Source: a virus. From it: a DNA stretch of 31,372 nt. A program made the translations under genes and the position numbers. The notes below the pieces were generated by a model. The model saw only the letters and a program-made list of their open reading frames with translations. It was not told where the DNA came from and ran no database searches. Positions 5,381-5,512 of the stretch are shown here, one piece after another (positions within the stretch are counted from its first letter, which is position 1; every line of letters starts with the position of its first letter). Location of the stretch: positions 1 to 31,372 of the IMG/VR virus record IMGVR_UViG_3300027608_000098; one strand, given 5' to 3'.

Positions 5381-5512
5381 CTAGTGCAGTAGTTAGTGCA
5401 GTAATGGAAATGGTGTAATGCATTAGTGCAATAATAGGCCCTAAAGGGCCTTTATTACTGCACCTACATGCTCCGCAATACTGCACTAGTGCAATAAGGG
5501 TTACTGCACTAA
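5381..5512. repeat. Seven-copy quasi-palindromic 12-mer array (TTAGTGCAGTAA type), candidate operator or origin iterons
   Basis: Copies seen: CTAGTGCAGTA 5381-5391, TTAGTGCAGTAA 5393-5404, TTAGTGCAATAA 5423-5434; inverted TTACTGCACC 5455-5464, TACTGCACTAG 5479-5489; direct CTAGTGCAATAA 5486-5497 (fused with the previous copy as the palindrome TGCACTAGTGCA); inverted TTACTGCACTAA 5501-5512. The unit is itself nearly palindromic (TTA-n-TGCA-n-TAA). The array fills the gap between the primase-helicase stop and the HTH gene start, with a GGCCC/GGGCC hairpin in its middle. Multiple binding sites of one dimeric protein are the simplest reading; origin iterons or a multi-site operator are both possible. 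Confidence 0.8.
5437..5450 (-). terminator. GGCCC-TTTA-GGGCC hairpin, weak terminator candidate
   Basis: A 5-bp perfect GC stem with a 4-base loop, about 65 bases after the primase-helicase stop. On the minus strand it is followed by TATTATT, which is only moderately T-rich; on the plus strand it is followed by TTTATTA. It splits the repeat array into two halves. It could end the replication operon transcript, or be part of an origin structure. Confidence 0.4.

Follow-up and report, generated by a model that had tools for sequence, protein, structure and literature searches.

A repeat array beside a phage primase-helicase gene as a candidate replication origin that is exchanged with the C-terminus of the enzyme

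The repeat array that follows the primase-helicase gene in the window (the whole stretch of viral DNA analysed, 31,372 nucleotides) very likely represents the iterons of a phage replication origin, and these would be bound by the predicted winged helix at the C-terminus of the primase-helicase. Sequence comparisons among relatives show that in nature the array is traded together with the final 65 residues of the enzyme as one matched cassette.

The array and its neighbouring genes

The array is the sole intergenic DNA between the primase-helicase gene and the gene for an HTH-like protein. The gap reaches from the primase-helicase stop codon (5515-5517) to the HTH start (5365), and its features and neighbours are the following:

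4892-5365, minus strand: HTH-like protein, 157 aa; the next gene after the array, assorting freely with respect to array type
5366-5514, minus strand: proposed replication origin (whole gap); replaced as one block with the primase-helicase C-terminus in relatives
5381-5392, plus strand: putative iteron copy 1, CTAGTGCAGTAG; HTH-proximal and weakly conserved, 17 variants in 63 class-A loci
5393-5404, plus strand: putative iteron copy 2, TTAGTGCAGTAA, exact; from the mismatch scan and class-A conservation
5423-5434, plus strand: putative iteron copy 3, TTAGTGCAATAA; adjoins the hairpin and hardly varies (2 variants in 63 class-A loci)
5436-5451, no strand assigned: central hairpin, AGGCCCTAAAGGGCCT; pairing of its stem maintained through compensatory changes
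5455-5466, minus strand: putative iteron copy 4, TAGGTGCAGTAA on the minus strand; beyond the hairpin and in the opposite orientation to copy 3
5478-5489, minus strand: putative iteron copy 5, CTAGTGCAGTAT on the minus strand
5486-5497, plus strand: putative iteron copy 6, CTAGTGCAATAA; shares 4 bp with copy 5
5501-5512, minus strand: putative iteron copy 7, TTAGTGCAGTAA on the minus strand, exact
5515-7473, minus strand: primase-helicase, 652 aa; PriCT_1-like N-terminus, primase-like middle, AAA_25 helicase, predicted C-terminal winged helix
5518-5715, minus strand: C-terminal domain of the primase-helicase (about residues 587-652), a winged helix by prediction; swapped along with the array and proposed to bind the iterons

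With a copy defined as having at most two mismatches to TTAGTGCAGTAA, seven TTAsTGCAsTAA-type copies were found within 132 bp (5381-5512), in both orientations and surrounding the hairpin, which confirmed the arrangement described in the initial annotation. When the window was shuffled 500 times (first-order Markov), a 132-bp stretch held at most two copies. The copies were also described there as quasi-palindromic; they are palindromes, but imperfect ones. A search for the 12-mer across the window, proposed at the same time, came out in favour of the annotation: the copies are confined to the gap and not scattered at random, which would have counted against it, with only three others (at most two mismatches) in the remainder of the 31,372 bases. 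The GC skew, suggested as a further check for an origin, did not bear the idea out and showed no turn at the array.

As single-stranded DNA the gap folds better than 200 of 200 shuffles (z -4.4), mostly because the copies are inverted. The copy nearest to the HTH gene is the least conserved and has lost the TGCA core in 8 of the 63 class-A loci, whereas the remaining six copies keep this core in 62-63 of 63. At 43% GC, compared to 51% for the window, the AT content of the gap is only moderately raised, and no clear or distinct AT block that would qualify as an unwinding element was seen in it. A number of metagenomic contigs end within the array or the hairpin (5387-5455), probably because assembly broke off at inverted repeats or where cassette types were mixed.

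The primase-helicase of the window matched AAA_25 (E 7e-20) and, over its primase-like middle, the DNA primase family phrog_2597 (E 1e-46). Its match to PriCT_1 was just below the Pfam cut-off (E 9e-4), with a PriCT_1-like N-terminus present in 18 of 18 members, and the RepB primase domain PF16793 appeared in 3 of 18 members without reaching significance (best E 0.11). The NCBIfam search returned no match, and a PDB sequence search with the protein and with its profile gave nothing up to E 1. Among the matches listed for GenBank phages and plasmids, identity was only 24-28% over the middle part and none covered the C-terminus. Of two GenBank relatives, Castelnaud has no gap after the primase, and Javan59 has a 302-base A/T-rich gap with a weak hairpin only. 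Residues 1-100 (7174-7473; PriCT_1-like) come as two alleles (identity about 100% or about 66-70%), which assort independently of the C-terminal cassette and make up a second exchange module in the enzyme.

For the C-terminal domain, the predictions point to a winged helix. From an alignment of this domain AlphaFold built a helix-helix-strand-strand fold (mean pLDDT 64.6, core 77-79). In a full-length model, whose mean was 42.6 and whose body was not interpretable, this region reached a pLDDT of about 79-87, with about 80-87 for residues 600-640. Foldseek found no match to the C-terminal model with E ≤0.001. The top matches in VIA-align 2 were mostly winged helices with moderate scores (Z 5.4-6.8), among them the SAMD1 winged helix in complex with DNA and the gamma domain of FtsK.

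Three other regions of the window were noted. Several relatives' contigs end about 533-542 nt past the HTH stop, corresponding to position ~4360 (4350-4365), between the ORF at 4431-4895 and the small terminase gene; the clustering is modest, with five ends at 4362, and the site could be a cos site or genome end. At 26584-28801, genes resembling the two halves of a thiamine-pyrophosphate-dependent dehydrogenase flank a radical-SAM-like gene, as judged from translations only, and adjoin glycosyltransferase-like genes at 29559-31244; the dehydrogenase-like and radical-SAM-like set looks like unusual phage cargo. The protein at 20533-21501 carries about six FLYDGSxFTDIIYPGASxTxAxGIDGSNIVGY-type repeats and is possibly a tail-associated beta-propeller.

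Array types and the C-terminus of the primase-helicase

Relatives of the primase-helicase and the HTH protein were gathered from IMG/VR. All complete loci compared (127 distinct) had an array in the gap, and the arrays fell into six sequence types. The window's array is of type A, TTAsTGCAsTAA, and the other types are:

Type B: CCTATCACC
Type C: CCTTCAAGAT
Type D: CCCTCAAGAT
Type E: CCCCCAAGAT
Type F: CAGACAAATT

The array type was scored from the DNA alone and the primase-helicases were clustered by their last ~65-72 residues. The two classifications agreed in 127 of 127 distinct complete loci, a number that counts distinct sequences and not independent events, since many loci come from overlapping metagenomes. 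The independent evidence is the number of switches in array type on other trees: parsimony counted 12 for the primase body (tree of residues ~300-572) and 31 for the HTH gene (53 with shuffled labels). On the C-terminal tree only five changes were needed, the minimum for six types, compared to 46 with shuffled labels; across the trees, shuffled labels required about 46-54 changes.

No mismatched pair of C-terminus and array was found among the 127 distinct loci. The two are adjacent, so part of the association must be linkage. However, within type A, 44% of the polymorphic site pairs between C-terminus and array failed the four-gamete test, close to the 46% between C-terminus and HTH gene, a count that is supporting evidence only because repeated mutation can inflate it. 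Recombination falls between C-terminus and array within type A, and linkage alone therefore does not explain the absence of mismatches.

Related C-termini also carry related iterons, as in types C, D and E (CCTTCAAG, CCCTCAAG and CCCCCAAG), whose sites are one or two bases apart. Types C and F have nearly the same spacing with different letters, with copies starting at 1, 11, 23, 48 and 74 in type C and at 5, 16, 28, 52 and 78 in type F. Such a concerted change at about six copies with the geometry kept is the mark that would be expected of a protein that reads the sequence.

The exchange can be followed in pairs of close relatives. Compared to the window, the primase-helicase of locus L077 is 94-100% identical in 50-residue bins to residue ~550 and only 28% identical over residues 601-650. 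Its array is of type E and not of type A, and its HTH protein is 98% identical over the 49 residues present. At the DNA level, identity falls to ~40%, as between unrelated sequences, over a stretch that begins about 210 bp before the primase stop (-210) and ends about 150 bp past it (+150), with flanks mostly at about 90% identity or more. The swapped block is thus ~360 bp long and extends from primase-helicase residue ~586 to the HTH start codon. Three other comparisons (L160 with L208, L156 with L206 and L229 with L266) had this sharp right edge as well, and two loci, L041 and L072, carry cassettes of types B and C on a type-A-like N-terminal half.

The hairpin, the proposed mechanism and competing explanations

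A structure-conserved stem-loop lies 3' of the primase-helicase gene. In 57 distinct type A gaps, the stem was paired in 99.7% of cells, and double-sided changes occurred in four of its seven pairs (40 such cells, compared to 9.9 in shuffles); slid versions of the stem showed no such compensatory changes. In all six types a GC hairpin with a T/A-rich loop sits between inverted copies. The stem sequence moves with the cassette, as in L077, which means that the conserved body of the enzyme could use its shape rather than its exact letters. A role of the hairpin solely as a terminator was rejected: it is terminator-like in type A only, on the plus strand and hence opposite to the genes, and it is kept in types B-F without a following T-run.

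In the origin model, the C-terminal winged helix (about residues 587-652) would bind the TTAsTGCAsTAA copies and thereby assemble the primase-helicase to either side of the GC-rich palindrome. Once the palindrome is unwound or extruded, each strand would present a hairpin at which the primase domain could start and the AAA_25 helicase could load. We infer the physical binding, the origin activity and the use of the hairpin as a priming or loading site. The clustering of several copies of a short site beside the gene of the presumed initiator is as found in iteron origins.

It is possible, though we consider it rather doubtful, that the array serves two purposes, so that the primase-helicase binds it as an origin and, through the same binding, governs how the HTH gene and those downstream are transcribed from a promoter within the array. 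This reading is an addition to the origin explanation and no alternative to it. The HTH start codon abuts the array in all types and leaves no other upstream region for a promoter, but a scan of the coding strand, which was crude and modelled on a sigma factor that may not be the host's, reported no sigma-70-like promoter within the array. Read-through from the primase gene would also suffice for HTH expression.

The hairpin could instead be the terminator of the primase operon and the repeats a recombination hot spot, with the C-terminus hitchhiking along with the array. The recurrent breakpoints at the cassette edges and the terminator-like hairpin on the plus strand fit this, but the strand and the missing T-runs of types B-F speak against it, as does the perfect matching of types despite within-type recombination between C-terminus and array. 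A coordinated change of about six copies with their spacing kept also needs a sequence reader, and we regard this explanation as very unlikely.

The initial annotation had considered an origin, an operator of the HTH protein, or both, and the co-segregation of the array with the primase-helicase C-terminus in all 127 loci supports the origin. The operator reading is not supported. As an operator, the array would let the adjacent HTH protein repress or activate its own gene from repeated sites. The sites are quasi-palindromic and directly upstream of the HTH gene, which follows the array in the relatives compared, and the protein itself gave sub-threshold family matches only. However, the site type does not follow the HTH protein. 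Proteins identical over their full length adjoin three unrelated arrays (identical pairs were found for A and B, A and C, and B and C), the HTH cluster H0 (single-linked at 80% identity) occurs with types A, B, C, D and E, and the same array adjoins HTH proteins that are only ~50-58% alike. In the comparison with a relative that has another array, identity does not return before the HTH start codon, which leaves no room for a shared operator between array and gene, and the HTH-proximal copy is the most degenerate one. An operator function is thus extremely improbable.

Iteron arrays are also known as centromeres and in packaging sites, and the terminase genes are only about 1 kb away, but a partition or packaging site read by another, linked phage protein is hardly credible here, since that protein would need to co-segregate with the array, which the next gene downstream does not, and the piece that does is the C-terminus of a replication enzyme.

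Known origins and distant relatives

The proposed origin would, by analogy, be a variant of the iteron and hairpin origins of RSF1010, pRN1, lambda O and PLE RepA. Replicons of the pRN1 and BIP-1 type encode an archaeo-eukaryotic primase, an SF3 helicase and a C-terminal winged helix, and pRN1 has a stem-loop origin 3' of this gene (PMC4234260). As in pRN1, primase, helicase and a C-terminal winged helix (here predicted: H-H-E-E, Z up to 6.8) are found in one polypeptide, the proposed origin is directly downstream of its own gene, and the pairing of the stem is kept more than its sequence. The helicase here is AAA_25 (RecA-like) and not SF3 as in pRN1, iterons flank a short hairpin here while the origin of pRN1 has no iteron structure, and the specificity types here are exchanged as cassettes. 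The IncQ plasmid RSF1010 combines RepA, RepB' and RepC with iterons and ssi hairpins (PMC4434180; PMC4234260), on which the RepB' primase acts (PMC4434180). Iterons and hairpins (primase-recognised in RSF1010) are likewise combined here in an element that brings its own primase and helicase, but the three separate proteins and two ssi hairpins of RSF1010 are replaced by one fused 652-aa protein and one central palindrome.

The lambda O protein binds iterons in ori (PMC3349717). Lambda and the window share a phage replication protein and iterons in the same module, with binding inferred here, and a specificity that is exchanged among related phages. In lambda the iterons are inside gene O and O is without primase or helicase; here they follow the gene, and the proposed binding domain is the C-terminus of the primase-helicase. 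For PLE, swaps of RepA and origin are driven by the origin-directed nuclease Odn (PMC8263062), and an initiator DNA-binding domain (here proposed) and origin iterons are exchanged as a matched pair in both systems. PLE is a satellite, however, its RepA_N is N-terminal, and its RepA is without predicted primase or helicase. A winged-helix domain was also exchanged recently between closely related genomes in the replication initiation proteins of Gordonia phages (PMC10684548), a likeness to the present case; in the portion of that account available to us, the exchanged part is N-terminal and the protein is described without an origin. One guess, by analogy with PLE, is that the matched domain and iteron cassettes diversified to escape origin interference or incompatibility.

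An alignment-based scan of genome contigs found no relative. A single-protein scan of genome contigs found 25 relative loci, mostly in Verrucomicrobiota MAGs or isolates, several of them on contigs of 100-500 kb. A C-run/G-run hairpin was present within 260 nt after the gene in 12 of 22 distant chromosomal relatives; elsewhere in these loci, 28 of 1545 windows had one (the sum of per-locus counts). The hairpin core was not found in the other 10 of 22, and about half had no significant repeat. In several, the hairpin arms carry repeats that recur nearby, such as TATGTCCAGA in L297 and GGAAGAAAC in L299, and a type-C-like array is present in L277, which lies on a 7-kb contig with a proteobacterial bin assignment. 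L297, an element in an Alphaproteobacteria MAG, is well suited as a second test system: its primase-helicase is followed (6473-6732) by an array of eight TCTGGACA-type copies with a CCCCCCCCTTAAAGGGGG hairpin.

Tentatively, these loci may belong to a widespread, undescribed class of origins in phages and integrated elements, many of them in Verrucomicrobiota. The conserved body of an all-in-one primase-helicase would start at a short C-run/G-run hairpin on both strands, and an exchangeable winged helix would read arbitrary iterons around it, with matched cassettes traded among phages, perhaps against origin interference or incompatibility. An unexplained repeat array has thereby become a concrete candidate origin. 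The six natural matched pairs of domain and site, including the close types C, D and E, would offer a route to the recognition code of the winged helix and to the role of the hairpin, and the matched cassettes would supply compatible sets of origins. The ~360-bp exchange would give a fine-scale view of phages changing their replication specificity.
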